Source of the DNA: Moorella sp. Hama-1
GTDB taxonomy: Bacteria; Bacillota; DSM-521; Neomoorellales; Neomoorellaceae
Assembly (NCBI RefSeq): GCF_023734095.1
Contig: NZ_AP024620.1
Span: forward strand, 554,501 to 618,500
Reading direction: 5' to 3'
Length of the DNA stretch: 64,000 bases
Made by a program: the position numbers and the translations under genes. This document shows positions 2,875 through 64,000 of the stretch, piece after piece; the stretch's first letter is position 1, and every line of letters starts with the position of its first letter. Under the pieces are notes generated by a model. It had not been told where the DNA came from and ran no database searches. It was given only the letters and a program-made list of their open reading frames with translations.

Positions 2875-3253
2875 TTTCCGGAGGAGCCCCTCATGGCTGC
2901 ACACCGTCACCAGCGAACCATGAAAATGCGGGTAGAGGAAGGGGCTGGCGTCTACAGGCGGAAGGCGACTTGGTTCGAGGCGTAAGCAAACTAAGCGAAG
3001 CCGAACCGAGGCGGCGGTGAACGGGATGGGGATCGTAACGTGACTTAAGAAATAAAGAGTAGCACGCCCCGTTATGATTGATCAAAGGAATAGAGCCTAG
3101 CCACCCCCGCCACCGAGGAAGGCTGAGCGCCAAGTTTGCTCGCCGAGAACCACCGGAGCCTGAAGCCTGTACCCGCCAGCCCCGCAGCAGTTGCTGTAAG
3201 TTGTAACCATTAAGTTGTAACCATTTTGGGGAGAAGTCTATTTTCGGAGGAGG
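2875..3253 (+). repeat. Family B structured repeat, copy 1 (nifH-nifI1 gap); HEARO/omega-RNA-like
   Basis: This 379-base noncoding element fills the nifH-nifI1 gap and shares most of its sequence with 17495-17859. It starts and ends on TTT(C)CGGAGGAG; the right copy is the ribosome site of nifI1. A long-range stem closes it: GGCTGGCG (2943-2950) with CGCCAGCC (3174-3181), and TACAGGC (2953-2959) with GCCTGTA (3165-3171). An inner stem pairs CTTGGTTCG (2969-2977) with CGAACCGAG (3002-3010), and a hairpin GGCTGAGCG...CTCGCC starts at 3121. The architecture recalls the HEARO RNA (omega RNA of IsrB elements); that match is from memory and not tested. No protein is encoded. Confidence 0.75.
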
Positions 3254-3261
3254 TTTAGCTT

Positions 3262-3579
3262 ATGAAAATGATCCGGGCCATTATTCGCCCCGAAAAAAGC
3301 GAGGAAGTAGTAGAGGCCCTGGCCGGGGCCGGTTATGTGGCCCTGACCAGGATGGATGTAGCCGGGCGGGGTAAGCAGAAAGGCATTCACATGGGTAACG
3401 TCTATTACGACGAACTGCCCAAGGTGATGCTCATGCTGGTAGTCGAGGATAACGAAGTGGAAGAAGTCCTGGAGATAGTTCTGAAAACGGCTGCCACCGG
3501 TAGCTTCGGTGACGGGAAGATCTTCATCAGCCCGGTGGAAGAGGCCTATACCGTGCGCACCGGTGCCCCGGGGTTATAA
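3262..3579 (+). CDS. nifI1: Nitrogenase PII-like regulator NifI1
   Basis: A 105-residue GlnB/PII family protein with the family C-terminal signature GDGKIFISPVEEAYTVRTG and a T-loop region near residues 36-55. NifI1 and NifI2 work as a pair that binds dinitrogenase and switches it off when 2-oxoglutarate is low (known from methanogens). Position between nifH and nifD is diagnostic. Its ribosome site GGAGGAGG belongs to the right end of the inserted repeat. Confidence 0.93.
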   Translation: MKMIRAIIRPEKSEEVVEALAGAGYVALTRMDVAGRGKQKGIHMGNVYYDELPKVMLMLVVEDNEVEEVLEIVLKTAATGSFGDGKIFISPVEEAYTVRTGAPGL

Positions 3580-10331: not shown

Positions 10332-12131
10332 GTGCGCATCGCCCTGGCTCAACTTGATCCCACCATTGGCGATATCGGGGGTAACCTGGATAAAATCCGG
10401 CAGGCGGTGGCTGCCGCCCGGCAGCAGGGGGCCGGGCTGGTAGTCTTTCCCGAGCTGGCCATTACTGGGTACCCACCCCGGGACCTCCTCTGCCGGCATG
10501 ACTTCCTTGAACGGGTGGAGAGGGTCCTGGCGGAAGATATAGCATCGTTGAGCCGGGAAGCGGCCCTGCTTATCGGCGCCCCGGTCCGGGGGCGGGGGGA
10601 TTCCGGCCTTTATAACGCCGCCCTGCTCTATGCCGGGGGTGAACTCTGCGGCCGCCAGGATAAAAGCCTGCTGCCGAACTACGACGTTTTTGATGAAAGC
10701 CGTTATTTCAAGCCGGCTGCCACCCGGGTGCCGGTATCCCTGGGGGACCTGCGCCTGGGCCTGACCATTTGCGAGGATATCTGGAACGACAAGGATTACT
10801 GGAACCGGCAGTTCTATGATATTGATCCGGTAGCTGAGATGCTGGACCGGGGGGCGGGACTCCTGATCAACATCTCCGCCTCGCCCTACAACTACGGCAA
10901 AATCGAATTACGGGCGGATATGCTCCGAAGCCTGGCCCGCAAGTACGGCCGCCCCATTCTCTATATTAACCAGGTAGGGGGCAATGATGAACTCATCTTT
11001 GACGGCACCAGCCTGGCTATCGACGCCACCGGCAGGATAGTTGCCCGGGCCGCCAGCTTTAGCGAGGACCTCATGCTCCTGGAGGTAGAGGGGCCGGCAG
11101 CCGGGGGTCCCGGCGTAACGAGGGTCTCGAACAGGGGGGGTTCAAGCCCCACCGCCGGCAGGGTACCGGGCAGCCTGGCCGACCAGGGATCTACCGTCCC
11201 GGAGCCCACCGATGCCAGTGGTCCTGCTATTGCGGTGCCGGCCTCCGGGACCTCAGGAATAGAACCCCCGATTATTAATGCCGCCGTAATCCAGGAAGAT
11301 ACTAGTTACGTCTATCGGGCCCTGGTCCTGGGCATTGCCGATTACCTGCATAAAACCGGTTTTCAGAAAGCCCTGATCGGTTTGAGCGGGGGCATTGATT
11401 CCTCGGTGACCGCCGCCCTGGCCGCCGCCGCCCTGGGGCCGGAGAATGTCCTGGGGGTGGCCATGCCCTCCCGTTACTCCTCCCCCGGCAGCCGCTCCGA
11501 CGCCCGGGAGCTGGCAACCAACCTTGGTATCGCCTACCGGGAGATCCCCATTGAAGGTATGTTCCGCGCCTATCTGGAAGTCATGAATGATGGCGGCCCA
11601 CCCCGGGGCGACCTGGCGGAGGAGAATGTCCAGGCCCGCATCCGGGGAAATATCTTGATGTTTATTTCCAACCGGGAGGGTTACCTGACCCTGACCACCG
11701 GCAATAAATCGGAGATGGCGGTAGGCTACTGTACTCTCTACGGCGATATGTCGGGGGGGCTGGCGGTCCTGGCCGACGTACCCAAGGTCATGGTCTATGA
11801 CCTGGCCCGTTATATCAACCGGGACCGGGAAGTGATCCCGGCCGGCGTCCTGGTCAAACCCCCTTCGGCAGAGCTGCGACCCGACCAGACCGACCAGGAC
11901 TCCCTGCCGCCCTATGAGGTTCTGGACGCCATTCTCCAGGGCTACATTGAGGAAGAGAAGTCGGCTGATGAGATTGCCGCCCGGGGCTTTGATCCCGACC
12001 TGGTCTGGGAGGTCATCCGCAAAGTCGACCGGTCCGAGTACAAGCGCCGCCAGGCGGCACCGGGGCTGCGGGTGACCTCCAAGGCCTTCGGCATGGGCCG
12101 CCGCATGCCTATTGCTTGGCGGGCTGGTTAA
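10332..12131 (+). CDS. nadE: Glutamine-dependent NAD+ synthetase
   Basis: A 599-residue two-domain enzyme making NAD from deamido-NAD with glutamine as ammonia source. The N-terminal nitrilase-type glutaminase shows the catalytic Glu (FPELAITGYPP), Lys (DKSLLPNYDVFDE) and Cys (LTICEDIWN). The C-terminal synthetase has the PP-loop GLSGGIDSS. Between them is an unusual Gly/Pro/Ser-rich insert of about 60 residues (encoded near 11090-11270). The GTG at 10332 after GAAGGGAAG gives the family's usual start; upstream in-frame ATGs lie in the terminator region. Confidence 0.93.
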   Translation: MRIALAQLDPTIGDIGGNLDKIRQAVAAARQQGAGLVVFPELAITGYPPRDLLCRHDFLERVERVLAEDIASLSREAALLIGAPVRGRGDSGLYNAALLYAGGELCGRQDKSLLPNYDVFDESRYFKPAATRVPVSLGDLRLGLTICEDIWNDKDYWNRQFYDIDPVAEMLDRGAGLLINISASPYNYGKIELRADMLRSLARKYGRPILYINQVGGNDELIFDGTSLAIDATGRIVARAASFSEDLMLLEVEGPAAGGPGVTRVSNRGGSSPTAGRVPGSLADQGSTVPEPTDASGPAIAVPASGTSGIEPPIINAAVIQEDTSYVYRALVLGIADYLHKTGFQKALIGLSGGIDSSVTAALAAAALGPENVLGVAMPSRYSSPGSRSDARELATNLGIAYREIPIEGMFRAYLEVMNDGGPPRGDLAEENVQARIRGNILMFISNREGYLTLTTGNKSEMAVGYCTLYGDMSGGLAVLADVPKVMVYDLARYINRDREVIPAGVLVKPPSAELRPDQTDQDSLPPYEVLDAILQGYIEEEKSADEIAARGFDPDLVWEVIRKVDRSEYKRRQAAPGLRVTSKAFGMGRRMPIAWRAG

Positions 12132-16906: not shown

Positions 16907-17322
16907 TCCGGGTTACCTTCTGGCAGGGGAAGGATGGTAACCTCCGGGGCTTTGTTATTACCGGTCACGCCGGTTATGGTCCCAAAGGAGAGGATATCAT
17001 CTGCGCCGCCGTTTCGGCCCTAGCCCAGACGGCTGTTTTGAGTCTGCAAGAACACCTGGAACCGGAAGACAAGGAGCCCGTAGTCTCCATAAGGGAGGGC
17101 AACCTGCAGTGCCTTATCCCGGACGGCCTGAGCCCCGCCGGGGCCAGCACCGCGGGGGTCATTCTCAAAACCCTGGAAATCGGCTTGCAAGCCATAGCCA
17201 GCGACTACGATAAATATATGCGGATGGAGTATAAAGAAATAGATTGCAGCGAGCTCCCTCAAGGGGCTAACGCCCCAGCCACGAACAAGGAAAATGCTGG
17301 TTGGGGCAAGAAGCTGGAATAA
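16903..17322 (+). CDS. prp: Ribosomal-processing cysteine protease Prp
   Basis: 139 residues, YsxB family. The catalytic pair is visible as His in ITGHAGYG and Cys in [10 protein letters not shown]. In Firmicutes Prp removes the N-terminal extension of L27, and the L27 encoded downstream has exactly such an extension. It overlaps rplU by four bases. The last 35 residues are longer than in Bacillus. Confidence 0.92.
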
Positions 17323-17357
17323 CTAAACCAGTAATCACCATTTTAGCTGAACCCTAT

Positions 17358-17505
17358 TTACGAAGGAGCCGCTCATGGCGGTATGTCTCCATTAGCAAAC
17401 GGGAGAAATGAGAGTTCGGTAAGCTTTAATCTGAAACTGGCGCAGCCAGTTTCGACGAGCCTCCCACATCTCACCTCCCACCTCACACATCTTATTTCGG
17501 AGGAG
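17358..17505 (+). repeat. Family A repeat, copy 1 (prp-rpmA gap)
   Basis: An element of about 148 bases shared with 18896-19038 and 32785-32930. It starts TTTACGAAGGAGCC and ends TTATTTCGGAGGAGCC, where a family B copy begins. The core holds the perfect hairpin GAAACTGGC-GCA-GCCAGTTTC and an outer pairing between GGGAGAAATGAGAG and the CTCCCACATCTCACCTCC region. It is the most diverged of the three copies. Confidence 0.75.
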
Positions 17506-17859
17506 CCCCTCATGGGGGCTGACGCCCCCGCCACAAAGATATGAAAATACTGGTTGAGTAGAGGGCTGGCGAGTACAGGCGGAAGGCGACTTGGTTCGAG
17601 GCGCTAGATACTTACGCGAAGCCGAACCGAGGCGGCGGTGAACGGGATGGGGATCGAAACGTAAATTGAGGAACGAAGAGTTCCGCTCCCCGCTGCGCTT
17701 ATTCAAAGGGATAAAGTGGAGCCACCCCCGCCGCCGAGGAAGGCTGAGCGCCAAGTTTGCTCGCCGAGAACCACGGAGCCTGGAGACCTGTACCGCCAGC
17801 CCCGCAGCGGTTACTGTAAGTTGCAACCATTCTTGGTAGAAGTCTATTTTCGGAGGAGG
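17495..17859 (+). repeat. Family B structured repeat, copy 2 (before rpmA)
   Basis: A second full copy of the element at 2875-3253. The closing stem is kept: GGCTGGCG (17564-17571) pairs with CGCCAGCC (17794-17801) and GTACAGG (17573-17579) with CCTGTAC (17787-17793), with a single bulged A where copy 1 has a 2x2 internal loop. The block from GGCGGAAGGCGACTTGG onward is nearly identical. The right end supplies the GGAGGAGGT ribosome site of rpmA. Confidence 0.75.
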
Positions 17860-17868
17860 TAGGCCCCA

Positions 17869-18141
17869 GTGTTAATAGATCTACAACTCTTTGCCCATAA
17901 AAAAGGTGTCGGTAGCTCCCGTAATGGTCGCGACAGCGAAGCCAAACGCCTGGGCGTGAAAAGGCAGGACGGCCAGCTGGTCAAGGCCGGCAACATCATC
18001 GTCCGGCAGCGGGGAACGCGGATTCACCCGGGCCTGAATGTAGGTATTGGTAAAGACGACACCATATTTGCCCTCATTGATGGCAAAGTGCATTTCGAAC
18101 GTAAAGGACGCGAAAAGAAACAGGTCAGCGTTTACGCTTGA
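17869..18141 (+). CDS. rpmA: 50S ribosomal protein L27 with Prp-cleaved extension
   Basis: 90 residues. The N-terminus [15 protein letters not shown] carries the extension and the cleavage context (after Phe-Ala, before HKKG) known for Firmicute L27 processed by Prp. The remainder is a standard L27 ([22 protein letters not shown]). GTG start at 17869, eight bases after a GGAGGAGGT site contributed by the inserted repeat. Confidence 0.96.
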
Positions 18142-18175
18142 AGCCCGGCTTATAAGAGCGGTTTAACGGCGTTCT

Positions 18176-18209
18176 CCAGAAACCCCTGGTTAGATCCAGG
18201 GGTTTCTGG
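18176..18209 (+). terminator. Perfect 14-bp hairpin after rpmA
   Basis: CCAGAAACCCCTGG pairs perfectly with CCAGGGGTTTCTGG around the loop TTAGAT. No T run follows (TATCGGC), so it may be a weak terminator, an mRNA stabiliser or part of the inserted material in this gap. Confidence 0.5.
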
Positions 18210-18270
18210 TATCGGCTCGTGTCCACCTTAAGGGAAGAGTCCCTCACGGGGGGAACGCCTTCACCATCGA

Positions 18271-18356
18271 ACCAGGGAGCCTGCATCCTGTACCGCCAGC
18301 CCATAGCTGGGTGTTTACCTATTATCCATTTTACTAGAAGCCTATTTCCGGAGGGG
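18271..18356 (+). repeat. 3' remnant of a family B repeat (before spo0B)
   Basis: This segment aligns with the last 85-90 bases of the family B copies: GGAGCCTG...CCTGTACCGCCAGCCC, then CCATT...TAGAAG.CTATTT.CGGAGGGG. The 5' two thirds, including the partner strand of the closing stem, are missing. It again ends on the Shine-Dalgarno of the next gene. Confidence 0.6.
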
Positions 18357-18361
18357 TGACC

Positions 18362-18895
18362 ATGGCCTGGGAGGCCGCAGAGATTATTCCACTGCTGCGC
18401 TGGCAGCGGCATGACTTTCTCAACCACCTGCAGGTTATTTCCGGCTATATCCAGCTCCAGAAAAGTGACCGGGCCCTGGTCTACCTGCGGCAGGTTATCG
18501 ACCAGATGGAACAAGTAGGCCGGGTTATGCGCCTCCTCCAGCCGGAACTGGCCCTCATCGCCCTGACCAAAATCGAGATGGCTGCGGCCAGGGGTATTAA
18601 CCTGGAAATTAAAATTGAAACGCGCATGGAAAACCCGGTCCTGGAACTGGGAGAAGCCGCGGACCTCTGGGCAAGGGCCTGGGATCTCGCCCTGGCCCTG
18701 TGTAGCGGGGATACCCTCGGATTCACCCTGACAGAAGCAGGGGACGGCTACCGCCTGCATTTTCATATCCCAGTACCGGCTGCACTACCCCCACCGGAGG
18801 CGGCAGCCACCCTGGCGGGCAGTCAACAATCACCCTTCACCTGGCATCCCGAAACAGGTGATTTAAGCATCCTTTTGCGGAAAAACTCCATCTAA
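18362..18895 (+). CDS. spo0B: Spo0B-like sporulation phosphotransferase
   Basis: 178 residues. The N-terminus has the Spo0B alpha-hairpin phosphotransfer motif RHDFLNHLQVISGYIQL, whose histidine passes phosphate from Spo0F to Spo0A in the phosphorelay. The C-terminal part is a degenerate kinase-like domain. Position between rpmA and obg is the same as in Bacillus subtilis. ATG at 18362 is five to six bases after GGAGGGG; a GTG at 18356 overlaps that site. Confidence 0.85.
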   Translation: MAWEAAEIIPLLRWQRHDFLNHLQVISGYIQLQKSDRALVYLRQVIDQMEQVGRVMRLLQPELALIALTKIEMAAARGINLEIKIETRMENPVLELGEAADLWARAWDLALALCSGDTLGFTLTEAGDGYRLHFHIPVPAALPPPEAAATLAGSQQSPFTWHPETGDLSILLRKNSI

Positions 18896-20323
<1,428 letters not shown>

Positions 20324-20329
20324 GGGTGT

Positions 20330-21466
20330 TTGACGGAGGAGGAGTGCCGGCAGACTTTGAGCCAGGCCCGGCGGCTGGTGGTGAAGGTCGGTACCAGCAC
20401 CCTGACCCATAAAACAGGCAAATTAAACCTGGAACGAATGGAGCGCCTGGTGCGCGAACTGGTCGACCAGGTCAACGCCGGTCGTCAGGTGGTCCTGGTG
20501 ACCTCTGGAGCCGTGGGAGCTGGTATGGGCCGGCTGGGATTAAAAGAGAAACCCCGGACCCTGCCGGAAAAACAGGCCGCCGCCGCCGTGGGCCAGGGAT
20601 TGCTCATGCACATGTATGAAAAATTCTTCAGTGATTACGGCCTGCTGGTGGCCCAGGTACTCCTCACCCGGGATGACCTGGCCGACCGGACTCGTTACCT
20701 CAATTCCCGCCATACCCTGGCCGCCCTGCTGCGCCATAATGTCATACCGGTTGTCAACGAGAACGATACGGTAGCGGTAGAGGAGATCCGCGTCGGCGAT
20801 AACGACACCCTTTCCGCCCTGGTGGCCGGGTTGATTGACGCTGATATCCTGTTTTTATTGACTGACACCGGCGGTCTTTTTACGGCCAACCCCGCCACCG
20901 ACGCTGGGGCCTGCCTGCTACCTTGTATTACGGAGATTACTCCGGAGGTGGAAGCCCTGGCCGGGGGGGCCGGTTCCACCTGGTCGACGGGCGGTATGGC
21001 TACCAAGATCCAGGCCGCCCGGCTGGCCACCAGCTTCGGCATTCCGGTAGTCATCGCCAGCGGTATCCACGCCGGCCAGATCAGTTCCATCCTCCGGGGT
21101 GAAGAAGTAGGGACCATCTTCCTGCCCCGGGAACACCGCGCCCATACCAGGAAACGCTGGCTGGCCTACGCCCCGGCCGCCCAGGGCCAGATCCAGGTCG
21201 ACGCCGGGGCGGCCCGGGCCATCTGCAAAAATGGCAAGAGCCTCCTCCCCGGCGGCGTAACAGCAGTGGTAGGAGATTTTGAACAGGGGGCCGTTGTTAG
21301 TATCGTTGATCCCGCTGGTAAAGAAATAGCCCGGGGGATGACCAATTACCCGGCGGCGGCTATTTCCCGGATTAAAGGCAGGAAAACGGGAGAGATTGGC
21401 GAAATCTTAGGTTACAAGGATTACGACGAAATCGTCCACCGGGATAACTTAATTGTCCTGGGATAA
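20330..21466 (+). CDS. proB: Glutamate 5-kinase
   Basis: A 378-residue amino-acid kinase with VVKVGTSTLT, VTSGAVGAG and NENDTVAVEEIRVGDND motifs, followed by a C-terminal PUA domain (from about residue 280). It catalyses the first step of proline synthesis. TTG start at 20330, seven bases after obg, with GGAGGAGTGAGGG upstream; it is followed 17 bases later by proA. Confidence 0.95.
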   Translation: MTEEECRQTLSQARRLVVKVGTSTLTHKTGKLNLERMERLVRELVDQVNAGRQVVLVTSGAVGAGMGRLGLKEKPRTLPEKQAAAAVGQGLLMHMYEKFFSDYGLLVAQVLLTRDDLADRTRYLNSRHTLAALLRHNVIPVVNENDTVAVEEIRVGDNDTLSALVAGLIDADILFLLTDTGGLFTANPATDAGACLLPCITEITPEVEALAGGAGSTWSTGGMATKIQAARLATSFGIPVVIASGIHAGQISSILRGEEVGTIFLPREHRAHTRKRWLAYAPAAQGQIQVDAGAARAICKNGKSLLPGGVTAVVGDFEQGAVVSIVDPAGKEIARGMTNYPAAAISRIKGRKTGEIGEILGYKDYDEIVHRDNLIVLG

Positions 21467-22743: not shown

Positions 22744-22780
22744 TTGTTAAAATAACAGCATAGGGAATCTGGAGGTAATG

Positions 22781-32784: not shown

Positions 32785-32930
32785 TTTCGGAGGAGCCCCT
32801 CATGGGGGCAAACTCCACCAGCGAACGGGAGAAATGAGAGGCAAGGCTTTAACCTGAAACTGGCGTAGCCAGTTTCGACGAGCCTCCCACCTCTCACCTC
32901 CAACCTCACACATCTCATTTCGGAGGAGCC
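32785..32930 (+). repeat. Family A repeat, copy 3 (before the S-layer gene)
   Basis: 146 bases flanked by perfect 13-base direct repeats TTTCGGAGGAGCC at 32785-32797 and 32918-32930. The interior is nearly identical to 18896-19038 for its first 80 bases, including the hairpin GAAACTGGC-GTA-GCCAGTTTC. The loop differs (GTA against GCA) while the stem is intact. The right direct repeat directly precedes the ATG. Confidence 0.82.
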
Positions 32931-35900
32931 ATGGTGTATGTTATGCCTTCTACCCATAGTCACCGGAAATCATCCTTGCTTTTTCTCATTATATTCGGCA
33001 TAATTGCCTATCTTTCCTCGCCGGCGCACCTGTACGCAGGGGACAACCATGCCCCTGTGGCTGGCTATGGTTGGGCCCTGGAGTTTTCGGGAAATAACCA
33101 GTATCTATACGCCGATTATGCTTCGCCGGCACCTGACCTGAGGCAGGCTCTGACGGTGGCCTTCTGGGTGCGGGTTAATAAATTTGAGACCGGCCAGATG
33201 TACTTTGTCAATAACTATGACGAAGCCCAGCACTTGGGTTTCAAGGGATATATAGGGCCGGACGCCAGCATCCATTTTCAATTCGGCAATAATCCGGAAA
33301 TATCCACGCCCCCCAACGTCCTGGCTCCGGGAGAATGGCAACACGTCGCCATTACGGGGACAACCTCTTCCCAGAAGATATATGTCAATGGTGAAGTAAA
33401 AGCCACCCTATCCGGTGGTTCTGGCTGGGGCAGTGCCACCGGTCATTATTACCTGGTCAATAATTATTTTTATCGAGGCGCCCTGGACGGCGCCATCGAC
33501 GAGATCAGCCTGTGGAATAAAGCCCTGGACGGGGCGGCCATCCGGGACCTGGTCTACGGGGGGATAACCCCGGATCACCCGGAATATGCCCAACTGGTGG
33601 GCTACTGGCGGCTGGATGAGGGTTCCGGTACGTTGGCCCTGGATGCTAGGGGCATGGGTAACGCCACCTTGGGCAGCCACAAACCCGGTACGCCCCTCCC
33701 GTCCTGGACCCCTTCCGGGGTACCTCTAACCTTCGTCACCGCTGATACCACCCCCCTTGAAGGCTTCCTGCCCGCCCGGGACGCCGATGGTGACAGCCTG
33801 ACCTATAGTTTGACAGGCGGGGGGAGCAAAGGGACGGTTACCTTTACAGATCCCCAGAGGGGCGCCTTTACCTATACTCCCACCCTTTATAGCAGCGGCC
33901 CGGATTCCTTTGCCTTCAAGGTAAATGACGGCCGGCTGGACTCCAATACAGCCACAGTGACGGTCGTCGTTTACCGCGCCGCTCCCGACCCCGGCGGGGA
34001 CACGACGGTGGTCGATCCCGGCGACCCGGCTCGCCCGGCAGCCATCGTCGCCGGCTCACTTTACCCGGCTGCCGGACCTAACATCCGCCTGGTAGTACCG
34101 GTTTTACAGGACCCCCAGGGTACGCCCCCGACCAGCATCCGCATTCTTACCGTTACCGGAGGCCGTTTGGCCCTGGATGCAGAAACTGAAACCCCGGTAC
34201 CCGTGGGGGCGGAGGCGCCGCCCCTGCCCTTATCCGGGAATTACCTTGACTTCAAGTTTACCCCCGACCCCAGCCGGGAGACAGATGCCTATTTTACCTA
34301 TGCCGTCGTCGACCCCCAGGATGCGGCCCATTACTCAGCCCCCTCGCAGGCGACGATTCCCATTATACCTGCTACCGCCTCCGGGCCGCCCATCCTGCAG
34401 TTATCCGGGGACCTGATCGCGAACGGTCGTGAGTATCGCGCGGGTAGCGCGCCGGTCGTTATTGATCCCAACCTAACCGTCACCGCCGGCGCCAGGGGTA
34501 GCCTGGCGGGAGCTATAGTGGCGATTACTGCCAATTTCTCCTCATGCCAGGATAGCCTGGGCCTTAACGTTGAGGGAAGAAATGGGCAGGAACCAGGCAT
34601 TCGGAGCCATTACGATGCTACTACGGGAGTTTTAACCCTTACCGGCCTGGCACCCCCGGAAGCCTACCAGAGGGTCTTACGTTCCGTTACTTATTCCAAC
34701 AACAGCCAGGACCAGGTTCCGGGCGAGCGGACGGTGACTTTCACTGTCTATGATGGCTATACTTATAGCAGCCCCGTCTCCTGCCAGATCCTGGTCACGG
34801 CGATGAATGATCACCCGGGTGATACCCCCGGCGATCCGGGAGACAATAGGCGGGGAGCCAATGGGGGCTCCGGGGGAACGGATCCGGGAACTGACGAATC
34901 TGGCGGAGAGCCGAAGGGCGGGCCGGTAGCGGTGAAACCGGACCCGGGCGCCGTCCAGATAGCCCCGGGTAACTTTCTGTTAAAGACAAGGGAGACCGCC
35001 CGGCAGGATGTCGTGACCTTAACCGTTGACGCCGGGGAACTGGCAGCTCTGATTAGCAAGAAGGGCCGGGATATCAGCACCTATACCCTGGCAAGCCGTG
35101 AGATGGCCGATGGTTTCGTGGCCAGGATCCCCGCTATCGTCCTGGAACAGATGGCCCGCGAGAATCCCGCTGCCAGCCTGGAACTGCAGGCTGCCCCTGC
35201 TACCTGGCGCTTGCCGGTCCGGAGCCTGGATGTTTCTACCATTGCCGGTAGCTTGGGCACCAATCGGGATGATCTATTCCTGGACTTCAGTATTCAAAGG
35301 CTATCGCTGGAGAGAGTCCTTCCTGCCGGGGCGGGGGAGCAGGGGAGGGCAGAGCCTGGTCGCCCAACCAGCGGTGACGGTCGCGGAGAACTGCTGGCCG
35401 GCCCGGTATTTTTCGCCGTCCAGGGCGTGGATGGTAGCGGGCAGAGTATAGCGTTACCCGGGTTTAATACCTACACCAGCCGGAGCCTCAACCTGGCAGG
35501 CACCCTGGACCCGGATGCAGCAGCGGCGGTTCTTTACGATCCGGTCCGCCGCGATCTCCGGCCGGTGCCGGTGGTATTTACCTTTACCGGGGGCCGGGCT
35601 GTAGCTGTATTGAAGCACTGGGGTAATGGTATTTACTTTATTTTTGAACATCATCAGGCCTTCCCCGACCTGGCCGGCCACTGGGCGAGAAGGGATGTCG
35701 CCAAACTGGCCTCCCGGCTGATTGTCGCTGGCCGGGAAAAACAGGACTTTAATCCGGAGGAACCGGTGACCCGGGCCGAGTTCACCGCTTTACTGGTGCG
35801 GGCCCTGGGCTTGTCCGGCGGGGAAACCGGGGCTGAAAAGGCAAGCTTCCCCGATGTTACCGGCCACTGGGCAGCAGCCGCCATTAATACCGGCGCCGCT

Positions 35901-56661: not shown

Positions 56662-59600
56662 GTGCCAGACCCCATAAATCCCTGGAAGGGATTGAAACAC
56701 TTATCCCTTAAAACGCGAACTGAGAGACGAGCCTGGTGCCAGACCCCATAAATCCCTGGAAGGGATTGAAACTTAAATGGGCACCCTCTATAGGAGCATG
56801 GCAACGGATGTGCCAGACCCCATAAATCCCTGGAAGGGATTGAAACTGTATTGATACCGGCTCCTTTGTGTGGGGGCCAGTCACGTGCCAGACCCCATAA
56901 ATCCCTGGAAGGGATTGAAACGGGAGGGGCAGAAAGGAGAAATATGATTACCGAAGAAGTGCCAGACCCCATAAATCCCTGGAAGGGATTGAAACTGTAA
57001 GCGTGGAGCCGATGCTAGGACCAGTAGATTGTGCCAGACCCCATAAATCCCTGGAAGGGATTGAAACTTGATTTGGCCTTCAACTGGCCTGTGCAGGACA
57101 ACCTTGTGCCAGACCCCATAAATCCCTGGAAGGGATTGAAACGGGCATTTGGTGTTTATAGCCGCGAAGAGTTTCGGTATGTGCCAGACCCCATAAATCC
57201 CTGGAAGGGATTGAAACTAGGCGGGATTTACGGCCACAAACTGACGACCGGCCGTGCCAGACCCCATAAATCCCTGGAAGGGATTGAAACAGGATAAAGG
57301 GAACGATTATTGAGGAGTGTTATTTGTGCCAGACCCCATAAATCCCTGGAAGGGATTGAAACAGCTTCGCCTTGCATCAGCAGGATTTTGTCGGTTAGTG
57401 CCAGACCCCATAAATCCCTGGAAGGGATTGAAACGCTCAATGGGGTGTACATTTTGTGATGTGCCCAAGGGTGCCAGACCCCATAAATCCCTGGAAGGGA
57501 TTGAAACGTGGAAAAGACGCTGGAAAGAGGTGTTAGGAATATAGTGCCAGACCCCATAAATCCCTGGAAGGGATTGAAACGCCAAGTACGAAGACGGCAA
57601 ACTAAAAATCGTCTACGTGCCAGACCCCATAAATCCCTGGAAGGGATTGAAACTTACATTGCATCATTCCATCAGCTCAAAAAAACAGGGGTGCCAGACC
57701 CCATAAATCCCTGGAAGGGATTGAAACAAGTCTGCAACCTCACCCTGGACGATGTGTCCCTTGTGCCAGACCCCATAAATCCCTGGAAGGGATTGAAACG
57801 AATTGTCGCCGCCAACGAAGTCCGCACATGGAATAGTGCCAGACCCCATAAATCCCTGGAAGGGATTGAAACCAGTAGTGATGCCAGTGCGCCCGGCGGT
57901 AGTGGGGCGTGCCAGACCCCATAAATCCCTGGAAGGGATTGAAACATAGCATACATACCGCCGCTATGCCAGCGAGGATAATGTGCCAGACCCCATAAAT
58001 CCCTGGAAGGGATTGAAACGCAAACTGGCTGGGCCGACGTGAGGGGTATCCCGATGTGCCAGACCCCATAAATCCCTGGAAGGGATTGAAACACTCCTGC
58101 GACCCGCCGGATACACACCCTTTTTAACGTGCCAGACCCCATAAATCCCTGGAAGGGATTGAAACGGGCCAAAAAATACTTACAGTATGAAGCCCCCTAT
58201 AAGCGTGCCAGACCCCATAAATCCCTGGAAGGGATTGAAACGAGTGGCTGATCCTGCTTTACCACTCTTTGGTAGGTGCCAGACCCCATAAATCCCTGGA
58301 AGGGATTGAAACTTGACCCCAACGCTCTCCAGGCGGCGGCCCTGGCTGTGCCAGACCCCATAAATCCCTGGAAGGGATTGAAACCATAGTTGGTGATAAT
58401 GCCGCGCTCGTGGCCTTCTGTGCCAGACCCCATAAATCCCTGGAAGGGATTGAAACGGAGTAGCATAGGAGGAAGTAGCTGGTCCGTGTCCAGTGCCAGA
58501 CCCCATAAATCCCTGGAAGGGATTGAAACACCGGGGCCATAAATCAGGCATTAGCGACCTTCAGGGCGGTGCCAGACCCCATAAATCCCTGGAAGGGATT
58601 GAAACAGGCAAATTGGCAATTAGCACTGTTATCGCGAAGCTTGTGCCAGACCCCATAAATCCCTGGAAGGGATTGAAACAACTCTCAGCTTGCGGAAGAC
58701 GAGATACTTGCCTAGGTGCCAGACCCCATAAATCCCTGGAAGGGATTGAAACGCCTAATCTGCCGGACATCCTGGCGGGTTAATTTTTTGTGCCAGACCC
58801 CATAAATCCCTGGAAGGGATTGAAACAACCCAGGGATGCGGCAGGCCGACGGACTCGGAAGCGTGCCAGACCCCATAAATCCCTGGAAGGGATTGAAACA
58901 CACAATAAAATAGCTATCTATCTTCCCGATCCTCGTGCCAGACCCCATAAATCCCTGGAAGGGATTGAAACACCCAGGGATGCGGCAGGCCGACGGACTC
59001 GGAAGCTGTGCCAGACCCCATAAATCCCTGGAAGGGATTGAAACTTAGGCTAGCATCCAGCAGCAGGGCCACGTTGCCCAGCGTGCCAGACCCCATAAAT
59101 CCCTGGAAGGGATTGAAACTGCCCAGTCGACCCGGCAGCATTGGCAGGACCTGGGTGCCAGACCCCATAAATCCCTGGAAGGGATTGAAACTTGGCAGAA
59201 ACATACTCATTAAAAGCACTACCAGCATGTGCCAGACCCCATAAATCCCTGGAAGGGATTGAAACAATTTTAGTGTGCAAGACCAAAATTGCGTCAGACA
59301 GGTGCCAGACCCCATAAATCCCTGGAAGGGATTGAAACGATTATTTTTATACCCGGCGACTTGAAGCAAAGGCGTGCCAGACCCCATAAATCCCTGGAAG
59401 GGATTGAAACATGGAGATAAATATTAACAGGGGCACCTTTCTAAAGGGTGCCAGACCCCATAAATCCCTGGAAGGGATTGAAACGGCATTAGAAGTAGCA
59501 GGGGTAGGGGATGCGAAAGTCGTGCCAGACCCCATAAATCCCTGGAAGGGATTGAAACTGAAATAGAAGGTAATACACTTTTTCTGCGCTTGCGCGTGCC

Positions 59601-62600
59601 AGACCCCATAAATCCCTGGAAGGGATTGAAACTGGTCTACAGCGGGTGGCCTAAACTAGAGGCCCTGATGGTGCCAGACCCCATAAATCCCTGGAAGGGA
59701 TTGAAACAATCTCATGAGCATCATCATGGACTGGTTCAAACGCGTGCCAGACCCCATAAATCCCTGGAAGGGATTGAAACGCGGAAAGCCTGCTACAGCA
59801 GGCGCCCGGCATGGTGGTGCCAGACCCCATAAATCCCTGGAAGGGATTGAAACTCCAGTCGCGGTACGGGTCCAGAAGACAGGGAAACGTGCCAGACCCC
59901 ATAAATCCCTGGAAGGGATTGAAACAAGGCGTTGCTGGCTTTGGAAATGAACACGTCTCCGTGCCAGACCCCATAAATCCCTGGAAGGGATTGAAACAAC
60001 GACAGCGCGGCAACAATACAGCTAAAAGACGGAGGTGCCAGACCCCATAAATCCCTGGAAGGGATTGAAACTGTCCTAACCCGATGCGTATCCCGGACTA
60101 CTATAAGGTGCCAGACCCCATAAATCCCTGGAAGGGATTGAAACCAGCTTCCGCTCATAATAGGCCGCCGTGACGCCGGTGGTGCCAGACCCCATAAATC
60201 CCTGGAAGGGATTGAAACGCCACGAAGGGCTTCTTCCCATGCCAGTAGGGGTTCTGTGCCAGACCCCATAAATCCCTGGAAGGGATTGAAACTTGCCTCC
60301 CCTCCCCGGCGGCCCCACGTTGCCCTGTGCCAGACCCCATAAATCCCTGGAAGGGATTGAAACAAGATCATGGACCCGGCCACTGGCCTGGAAAAGATGG
60401 TGCCAGACCCCATAAATCCCTGGAAGGGATTGAAACCAGGAGGCGGCCTCGGAAATCGGGAAACGCCTCTAGTGCCAGACCCCATAAATCCCTGGAAGGG
60501 ATTGAAACTTGACCAATTCTTCCCAATCCATTTTTCTCCCCTCCGTGCCAGACCCCATAAATCCCTGGAAGGGATTGAAACAAATACCTGGGGCAAGACG
60601 TGGGGGGACTTAAATGTGCCAGACCCCATAAATCCCTGGAAGGGATTGAAACTTGTCGGCGTACCCCACTGGAGTCCAGGGGCGGATCTGTGCCAGACCC
60701 CATAAATCCCTGGAAGGGATTGAAACTATGACGATACGCATCCGGAGGACGTAGATACCGACGGTGCCAGACCCCATAAATCCCTGGAAGGGATTGAAAC
60801 AAAATTTATAAAGGTGAGCGAAAACCGCCTCTGGCTAGTGCCAGACCCCATAAATCCCTGGAAGGGATTGAAACAAAGGCCAGCGTGTGCCGGTAGTCCA
60901 GGGCATAGCTTGTGCCAGACCCCATAAATCCCTGGAAGGGATAGAAACTAACTTTTTTCGTAAGTCCACTTCTTCCAGGACGGCGTGCCAGACCCCATAA
61001 ATCCCTGGAAGGGATTGAAACTAATACCGGCTGGCGGGCAACGTTAGCCGTGACGGTAGGTGCCAGACCCCATAAATCCCTGGAAGGGATTGAAACGAAT
61101 TTATCCGGGTGCTGGCGGCGGATAACTTCCGGTGCCAGACCCCATAAATCCCTGGAAGGGATTGAAACTTTGCAGCCTGGCGGCGGGGGATTGTAGAATT
61201 TATGTGCCAGACCCCATAAATCCCTGGAAGGGATTGAAACGAGTATCGTGACAGTCAAATGTCACCTGTGTTCCGGGTGCCAGACCCCATAAATCCCTGG
61301 AAGGGATTGAAACTGGGCAATCGGTCTCTACGCAACTACAGCATTTTAGGTGCCAGACCCCATAAATCCCTGGAAGGGATTGAAACTAGATGTACTACAA
61401 CTTTGACACCAGCGACCCGAACGGTGCCAGACCCCATAAATCCCTGGAAGGGATTGAAACTATGACGATACGCATCCGGAGGACGTAGATACCGACGGTG
61501 CCAGACCCCATAAATCCCTGGAAGGGATTGAAACGGGTAGAGCCCGAATTGATCGGGCTCGCATGTAGACGTGCCAGACCCCATAAATCCCTGGAAGGGA
61601 TTGAAACATCCACCCAAACGACGCCATGCGGCCGACTGATCAGGTGCCAGACCCCATAAATCCCTGGAAGGGATTGAAACTTGCAAAGGGCGCCATCTCT
61701 TACAACAGCGCACATCCGTGCCAGACCCCATAAATCCCTGGAAGGGATTGAAACTTTGAACTTTGCAATCATGTAGCAACCCTTAAAGGCGTGCCAGACC
61801 CCATAAATCCCTGGAAGGGATTGAAACCCAGAAGAGTGCGGAACGGACCAATCAGCGCCTGCGGGTGCCAGACCCCATAAATCCCTGGAAGGGATTGAAA
61901 CATACCGTCGAGCTCCTGGCCGCCGGCGCCGTGATGGTGCCAGACCCCATAAATCCCTGGAAGGGATTGAAACGATTATGCTGATGCTTACTGTACCGGG
62001 GCCATCAGTGCCAGACCCCATAAATCCCTGGAAGGGATTGAAACTAAAATTCGCATTACCCATGGGGCTGCCGCTATGCGTGCCAGACCCCATAAATCCC
62101 TGGAAGGGATTGAAACTGTAAGGGATAATCTATTCAACCTCAGTGTTTTCAGTGCCAGACCCCATAAATCCCTGGAAGGGATTGAAACCAATGCCAATGC
62201 CACGGTAGACCTGACAAATGTGACTGGTGCCAGACCCCATAAATCCCTGGAAGGGATTGAAACGAGATTGAGGAACACCCTTTGCTGGACCTCCTGGACG
62301 TGCCAGACCCCATAAATCCCTGGAAGGGATTGAAACTAAAAACCCACCTGATGATTTTATTCGATACTTGATGTGCCAGACCCCATAAATCCCTGGAAGG
62401 GATTGAAACTGAAGGATGGAAGGTTGCTGCAGAAGATTATTGGCGGTGCCAGACCCCATAAATCCCTGGAAGGGATTGAAACAGGATCTGGCTTTCATTC
62501 GTGACGACGGCACCAACAAGTGCCAGACCCCATAAATCCCTGGAAGGGATTGAAACAGACCGGCCATGTCAGCAGCCAGCTTTACCATGCGCGTGCCAGA

Positions 62601-64000
62601 CCCCATAAATCCCTGGAAGGGATTGAAACGATAAGGTCCTGCGCCGGGGCGAAAAAGAGGATGTGTGCCAGACCCCATAAATCCCTGGAAGGGATTGAAA
62701 CATGGCGATGATGTTAAGCTCTATCTGCTCCCTGGTCCGGTGCCAGACCCCATAAATCCCTGGAAGGGATTGAAACCAATCCCTGGATGACCATATCCAG
62801 GAGGGAGTTCGGTGTGCCAGACCCCATAAATCCCTGGAAGGGATTGAAACATATAGACTTTAAGGGCAAGCGTGGCAAGGTAGCCGGTGCCAGACCCCAT
62901 AAATCCCTGGAAGGGATTGAAACTATCCCTTTTGTAATCCGCCAGGCGGCCAGTCCGGGTGCCAGACCCCATAAATCCCTGGAAGGGATTGAAACCGCTT
63001 TTTGGCGGACGGAACGGTCATCGCCAATATTGTGCCAGACCCCATAAATCCCTGGAAGGGATTGAAACCTGAAGCGAATAATGCAATAAGCGCAGTACTT
63101 CCAAGTGCCAGACCCCATAAATCCCTGGAAGGGATTGAAACTGACTTGTATAAGGAAAAGCAAAACTAAAAGTTTCAGTGCCAGACCCCATAAATCCCTG
63201 GAAGGGATTGAAACATACCCAAGAATATATAGCAAGGAAACTTAATATAAGTGCCAGACCCCATAAATCCCTGGAAGGGATTGAAACCTTCAACATATAT
63301 CCAATTCTCTTTTTCTCTATTAGTGCCAGACCCCATAAATCCCTGGAAGGGATTGAAACAAAACATCATATCCCGAATAATTTATTGAACCAAGTGCCAG
63401 ACCCCATAAATCCCTGGAAGGGATTGAAACTGATTATCTTTTCAAAGCCAAACTTAAGGAGGGTAAAGTGCCAGACCCCATAAATCCCTGGAAGGGATTG
63501 AAACGAAAAACCTTCTACTTCTTCTGGCGCCGGGACTGCTGGTGCCAGACCCCATAAATCCCTGGAAGGGATTGAAACAACAAATTAGGCAAGCCAGCAG
63601 CAGAAGAAACCTCAAGTGCCAGACCCCATAAATCCCTGGAAGGGATTGAAACATAAGAATGAACTTAATCTCGTATTCCCCGATGAAAAGTGCCAGACCC
63701 CATAAATCCCTGGAAGGGATTGAAACTAAGTTGCCGATGCCGTCCTGAAAGCCAGTCAGATCGTGCCAGACCCCATAAATCCCTGGAAGGGATTGAAACA
63801 TATATTTCTCGCTGCCATAAACGCGCAGGGCGATCAGTGCCAGACCCCATAAATCCCTGGAAGGGATTGAAACCTTCCACACTTTTTGCTGCCAGCGCAC
63901 CAATAATAGGTGCCAGACCCCATAAATCCCTGGAAGGGATTGAAACGGTCACTATCCCCAGGGTGGTGGCTACATCTTTGACGTGCCAGACCCCATAAAT
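56662..64000 (+). CRISPR. CRISPR array, 100 complete repeats plus a partial one
   Basis: A 37-base repeat beginning GTGCCAGACCCCATAAATC and ending GGAAGGGATTGAAAC occurs first at 56662 and last in full at 63910; a cut copy at 63983 shows the array continues. I count 100 full repeats and 100 spacers of 34-39 bases. The repeat contains AATCCCT-GGA-AGGGATT, a seven-pair hairpin, and ends with the ATTGAAAC handle, so transcription is on the plus strand from the leader. By reading, all repeats are identical except the 59th (60912-60948), which has ATAGAAAC. Two spacers occur twice (58827/58972 shifted by one base; 60727/61461 identical). Confidence 0.99.

Follow-up and report, generated by a model that had tools for sequence, protein, structure and literature searches.

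Two repeat families in Moorella sp. Hama-1 are probably small mobile elements that insert beside Shine–Dalgarno cores

Two families of short repeats in Moorella sp. Hama-1, here called A and B, are probably small non-autonomous mobile elements that insert one way 3′ of a Shine–Dalgarno (SD) core and leave the gene an SD. The features seen directly are their copy number, their strand and spacing relative to genes, occupied and empty alleles, arrays, and recent identical copies. The original prediction was made from a stretch of 64,000 nucleotides (NZ_AP024620.1, positions 554,501–618,500; the window) and proposed that A is small, mobile and non-autonomous and that it targets ribosome-binding sites. 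This proposal is upheld by the number of copies, their spacing to start codons, the empty orthologous sites and the identical copies.

The window contains three copies of A, two full copies of B and one B remnant, all on the plus strand. The repeat predicted first (145 bp, 32785–32930, between direct repeats that contain an SD) is present as described: the core GGAGGAG lies at 32789–32795 on the target side and again at 32922–32928, both within TTTCGGAGGAGCC, and encloses a body (32796–32921) composed of a 5′ hairpin, a nine-pair hairpin and a pyrimidine-rich tail. The right core adjoins an ATG at 32931 that begins a 1149-aa protein with S-layer homology domains, and the left flanks differ among copies. 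The second predicted locus (18896–19038) carries TGAGGAG at both ends, within TTTTGAGGAGC: the left core (18899–18905) follows directly 3′ of the stop codon of a Spo0B-type gene, the body spans 18906–19030, and the right core (19031–19037) serves obg, which starts with TTG at 19049. A third copy, absent from the original prediction, has GAAGGAG on its left (17362–17368) and a body at 17369–17498, and with its right core extends over 17369–17505. That right core, GGAGGAG at 17499–17505, is common to the A copy and to a copy of B in a tandem array.

B is a second SD-bounded family. In this array its body, an imperfect palindrome, occupies 17506–17851 and ends in GGAGGAG at 17852–17858, ahead of a gene at 17872–18141 that we take, from gene order, to encode ribosomal protein L27. 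The other full copy lies 3′ of a nifH-type gene, with GGAGGAG at 2880–2886, a body at 2887–3245 and GGAGGAG again at 3246–3252, and precedes a P-II gene (ATG at 3262). The remnant of B (18240–18356) has an internal deletion and precedes the Spo0B-type gene. The genes behind the copies in the window are of many kinds, and copies of A and B stand in a single orientation with respect to their gene.

Common to A and B are an AATG(A) motif and, following CCNCNCATGG, a region with a 5′ hairpin; their bodies and tails differ, and B has at least two types of tail. Within the A body, the nine-pair hairpin GAAACTGGC/GCCAGTTTC that had been predicted, with a changing loop, is found with a loop of GTA or GCA; it is almost invariant, with 99.2% of its cells paired over 43 aligned copies. 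Both families fold more stably than expected (folding z of −4.16 for A and −5.91 for B). In the shared 5′ hairpin, 82% of cells are paired and one pair covaries: 42 copies have letters there, 15 of them UA and 7 CG. Compensatory changes are few, affecting two of 15 named pairs in A and two of 61 pairs in B within the Hama-1 genome. Among 19 aligned sequences of B (eight from Hama-1 and 11 from other genomes), 824 of 852 cells are paired, and across species 8 of 45 pairs are changed on both sides, both counts being given without a shuffle control. Over its ~355 bp, B is an imperfect palindrome in which long stretches are invariant, and it could itself be a structured RNA. No terminal inverted repeats were seen by eye, the ends CCCCTCATGG... 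and ...TTTCGGAGGAG not being inverted copies of each other. Within the window, nothing reached the gathering score in Rfam, including its riboswitch and leader families; at a lax threshold, 17300–19100 gave weak chance matches only, with no group II domain V or D1-D4-6. Two functions were considered and rejected. The left SD followed by CCCCTC and ATG opens a short frame that could have specified a leader peptide; the distance from this ATG to ATGA is 36 or 37 among A copies compared by eye, and thus no frame is conserved. As for an anti-SD switch, SD accessibility is not clearly different from that of shuffled bodies: in A at 37 °C the SD is unpaired with a value of 0.258, against 0.232 for shuffled bodies, and is higher in 25 of 45.

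The collection of genomic copies by BLAST, proposed along with the original prediction, yielded a large repeat set. The Hama-1 genome, a single contig of 3.32 Mb, contains at least 43 BLAST matches to A (the best 40 of 153 candidates being scored) and at least 48 to the ~355-bp B (the best 40 of 184). With up to three mismatches, the hairpin pattern of A occurs at 93 places in the genome, versus one for the reversed pattern. The common left end GGAGCCCCTCATGGNGGC, with two mismatches, occurs 54 + 51 times versus 1 + 1 for the control, and the right end of B, with one mismatch, 30 + 26 times versus none. A non-redundant census counted at least 77 copies of A (50 full length) and at least 74 of B (38 full length) in 92 stretches totalling 222 kb that were picked for matching A or B and are thus a sample of the genome. 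A further 17 stretches around left-end motifs not visited before proved to be nearly all A, B or deleted forms. Some copies are nearly or wholly identical at a distance: two copies of A that lie ~2.7 Mb apart by coordinates are identical over 140 nt, and B has a pair of copies, at 557380 and 676357, with 98% identity. Beyond Hama-1, A was found at E ≤ 0.001 in 10 of 11 genomes of the genus and in 2 of the 20 other genomes searched, and B in all 11 genomes of the genus and, among 11 others from the class, in one. A scan of GTDB genomes for the exact hairpin returned 30 stretches, many of which are probably chance. In Desulfofundulus thermobenzoicus (L068:5150–5500, minus strand), a short A-like hairpin with a pyrimidine tail lies between two copies of AAGGAGGTTT and precedes a gene read as clpC from its sequence; this module hints at SD-targeted elements outside Moorella.

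The position of the copies relative to genes is constrained. The right end is intact in 131 of 151 copies, and the next copy follows directly in 34 of these 131. Among the 97 terminal copies, 76 sit 3–16 nt before the start of a same-strand ORF, with a mode of 7–10 nt, and the remaining 21 lack an ORF start in that range. Under the same ORF rule, which was our own (at least 60 codons, or at least 40 where the frame runs off the stretch), the controls gave 12 of 131 on the reverse strand, going outward from the left end, and 542 of 4000 for random window positions. The right-hand GGAGGAG thus falls at the place expected for the SD of the downstream gene. Of 119 units, 31 are arrays, made of two or three copies each.

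Relatives of Hama-1 provide both states of such sites. In syntenic stretches of ten relatives, intergenic spaces jump by ~50–500 bp at ribosome-binding-site junctions, and there are 52 clusters of occupied and empty junctions, some of which were read closely. Several of the 52 are of other kinds, such as a 1,314-bp insert in G006, or G001 10631–10772. The junction between obg and the amino-acid-kinase/PUA gene is empty in Hama-1, where an unoccupied SD (GTGGAGGAGTGAGGGTGTTTG, 20310–20330) lies in a space of 6 bp between the genes; it is filled by inserted modules in nine of the ten relatives, the space measuring 76–389 bp, and the tenth (G008) is unreadable there. The ribosome-binding site of obg itself holds a single GGAGG and no A in G007 and G010, and A was seen at this site in none of the nine relatives read there. 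At the spo0B ribosome-binding site, G005 is empty (TTGAGGGAGGTTTTAGTTATG), and Hama-1 has its B remnant between AAGGGAAGAG and CGGAGGGG. By eye, the junction that carries B and A in Hama-1 has no full copy of either in the ten relatives. In the closest pair, G005 and G006, with flanks 95/96% identical, one site reads AATTCAAAGAG in G006 and in G005 carries an element flanked by AATTAAGGAG and TTTTCGGATGAG; the left core at this site is AAGGAG and the right core GGATGAG. In the comparison of G001 with G004, AAAGGAG is found both in the empty allele and on the right side. Empty sites without the SD duplication had been named in advance as an objection to the original prediction, and it fell away: the empty sites that were read hold a single SD-like motif and the occupied ones two. 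The identical distant copies and the empty and occupied alleles are the traces that recent movement would leave. A different kind of site was observed at the gene equivalent to window position 22778, where an A-like insertion (L092:6189–6350 in G002 and L094:5923–6133 in G007) lies inside the first codons, at purine-rich GGCGGGTAGG and not at an SD; this insertion may have given the gene a new start.

The original prediction further held that the flanks are target-site duplications, which differ between loci and match within each. Left and right flanks were compared position by position over 88 full copies. To the left of position −7, the left flank varies, whereas the right flank is constant (from −8 to −13, 97–100% in B). 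In no case did the right end of B take the left base at −8 (0 of 17) or at −9 (0 of 16). TTTC is therefore sequence of the element, and the duplication does not extend over the whole flank of 11–13 bp. That flanks differ between loci applies to the left side, the right being nearly constant over all copies; constancy across copies had itself been named as counter-evidence, which thus holds for the right flank and not for the left. Duplication of the SD core fared better, with evidence in both directions. By core, the 88 loci include 28 with two consensus cores, 24 in which only the left core is a variant, 14 in which only the right one is, and 14 with two different non-consensus cores, which fit neither a clean duplication nor a clean core borne by the element. 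An identical non-consensus 7-mer occurs on both sides in 8 of the 88 versus 0.90 expected, a number reached in none of 100,000 shuffles, whereas the 24 loci with variant left and consensus right count against duplication. When arrays are treated as units and both outer ends compared, a variant is shared in 7 of 58 versus 0.61 expected; all six right-hand variants at −6 are shared, versus none of 14 at −2 and −1. Single loci also point both ways: G001/G004 keep the AAAGGAG of the target on the right, whereas G005/G006 do not, nor does a 98%-identical copy at G000:1635972, which has TAAGGAG on its left and CGGAGGAG on its right, the cores differing at two positions. A fair reading of these sequences is that the exchange point would lie inside the SD core of 5–7 nt, or that a short duplication would have been followed by drift of the unused left copy. 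In one B copy (L148, G000:2476456), GGAGGAG on the right is followed by TCTATTTTCCAAGGAG, and the left side reads TCTATTTCCAAGGAG; here the target motif seems to be repeated beyond the element's own SD.

The second of these readings corresponds to a classical MITE, moved by a DDE-type transposase with a 5–7 bp duplication of the SD and later drift of the left copy. The excess of shared 7-mers, among single loci and among units alike, the sharing of every right-hand variant at −6, and the AAAGGAG of G001 and G004 all favor such an element. However, we consider it somewhat unlikely, given ends that read without terminal inverted repeats, the single orientation relative to the gene, the unshared variants at −2 and −1, and the mismatched cores both of the 98%-identical copy and of the closely related G005/G006 pair. 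Single-strand transposition of the IS200/IS605 or REP/RAYT type, in which the element would enter 3′ of a fixed short target and bring its own right cleavage site without any duplication, would fit a left core (AGGAG) that is strongly fixed beside a variable sequence further left, the constant right end, the hairpins in the element and strand-specific insertion. Conversely, matched rare variants are not expected from it, and the Y1 transposase (PF01797) has no match in the Hama-1 genome and occurs in 4 of 11 genomes of the genus, although B is present in all 11; this account is unlikely.

Other sources of a mobilizing enzyme gave no candidate. The single IS110 of Hama-1 has no similarity to A or B. 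One group II intron with an open reverse-transcriptase frame lies ~6 kb downstream of the window (L192:2424–4306, minus strand); the edges of the only intact group II intron in the genome are not an SD and it lacks the ends of A and B. Thus, no autonomous relative was found in the genome among three enzyme families (Y1, reverse transcriptase, IS110), nor was any coding element found in the 17 further stretches around left-end motifs. The mobilizer may no longer be present, or may be an enzyme of another family or of a new kind. That it was not found, together with the many diverged copies and remnants, would also fit old relics, now immobile and multiplied by homologous recombination between SD-bounded repeats; yet identical copies at a distance, and insertions confined to one lineage among close relatives, call for a copying step, and relics of this kind are improbable. 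Least of all is it likely that A and B are cis-regulatory leader RNAs (riboswitch, attenuator or RNA thermometer) that multiplied by duplication and were retained to control translation. Their placement before genes, their stable folds and a pyrimidine-rich tail able to pair with the SD would suit that role, but the genes downstream in the window are diverse, the SD is neither closed nor opened in excess relative to shuffled bodies, no Rfam family was recovered, and orthologous sites are often empty.

The explanation preferred here is that A and B are mobile elements entering 3′ of an SD core. The elements would always enter the same way round, immediately 3′ of an SD-like core (AGGAG or GGAGGAG), usually ~10 nt or less from the start codon. 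The 3′ end of the element would itself finish in an SD core, so that an inserted copy would be framed by two SDs, the second still at the normal distance from the gene. With a new SD left behind by every insertion, more copies could follow and build up the arrays of A and B. The movement is presumably transposition, with an exchange inside the core of 5–7 nt in which the right core would come either from the target, giving the matched rare variants, or from the element, giving the consensus. A putative trans-acting factor would recognize the folded body together with the 5′ hairpin that A and B share, either in RNA or in single-stranded DNA form. The pattern points to machinery that inserts strand-specifically and takes an SD-like core as its target. 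More tentatively, A and B might represent a new class of SD-specific mobile element: a structured RNA or single-stranded DNA module that would enter 3′ of an SD in the translation sense only, carry or rebuild its own 3′ SD, colonize operons without silencing them and stack into arrays, with unrecognized machinery and with variants beyond Moorella.

Several known systems share some of these properties. The BOX and RUP elements of pneumococcus are MITE-like, with terminal inverted repeats and target-site duplications (PMC3049150). A and B resemble them in being short, non-coding, highly folded, multicopy, intergenic and modular and in having no transposase of their own; they are set apart from BOX and RUP by terminal inverted repeats not being seen, by one orientation and by the SD as target. 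With MITEs in general, A and B have in common that they are short, non-coding, dispersed and high in copy number. REPs are sequences of 20–40 bp, and REP/REPIN elements are associated with RAYT (Y1) transposases (PMC3116915, PMC2817692, PMC3733652). The similarity lies in palindromic structure, high copy number and a fixed short tag at one end; A and B differ in their length of 140–355 bp, in being SD-bounded and in that no Y1 enzyme was found in the genome.

Elements of the IS200/IS605 family insert directionally beside a short target, have hairpin ends and have no inverted repeats. A and B are like them in all three respects, whereas the enzyme was not found in the Hama-1 genome and some copies of A and B share variants of the target core. 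Group II introns are structured RNAs with site- and strand-specific insertion, a mode of entry that A and B resemble. Unlike these introns, A and B have no group II domains in Rfam, and the edges of the resident intron are not an SD. Since the testable features of MITEs, REPs and IS605 were not all found, A and B are treated here as a variant of the small non-autonomous bacterial elements. In open PMC text, neither SD-targeted repeats nor repeats of such kind in Moorella were found.

Small elements usually settle where harm is least. The ribosome-binding site, where A and B sit, is the most sensitive part of a bacterial gene; they seem to be tolerated there by leaving an SD behind. If confirmed, they would constitute a natural mobile and self-repairing translation-initiation site and would explain why SDs and 5′ leaders differ among orthologous Moorella genes; they also pose the question of which enzyme takes an SD as its target. 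Moorella is a heat-loving acetogen of industrial use, and unannotated operon inserts of 150–500 bp therefore matter for strain engineering. A further SD-bounded hairpin module, neither A nor B (GGGCTGGCATTTGT...AATGCCAGCC...TTATTTTCGGAGGAG), occurs in syntenic stretches of G001–G004 and G009 (L088–L092). Elsewhere in the window, a CRISPR-like array occupies 56662–64000 and reaches the window end; its 37-nt repeat (GTGCCAGACCCCATAAATCCCTGGAAGGGATTGAAAC) is present at least 100 times.
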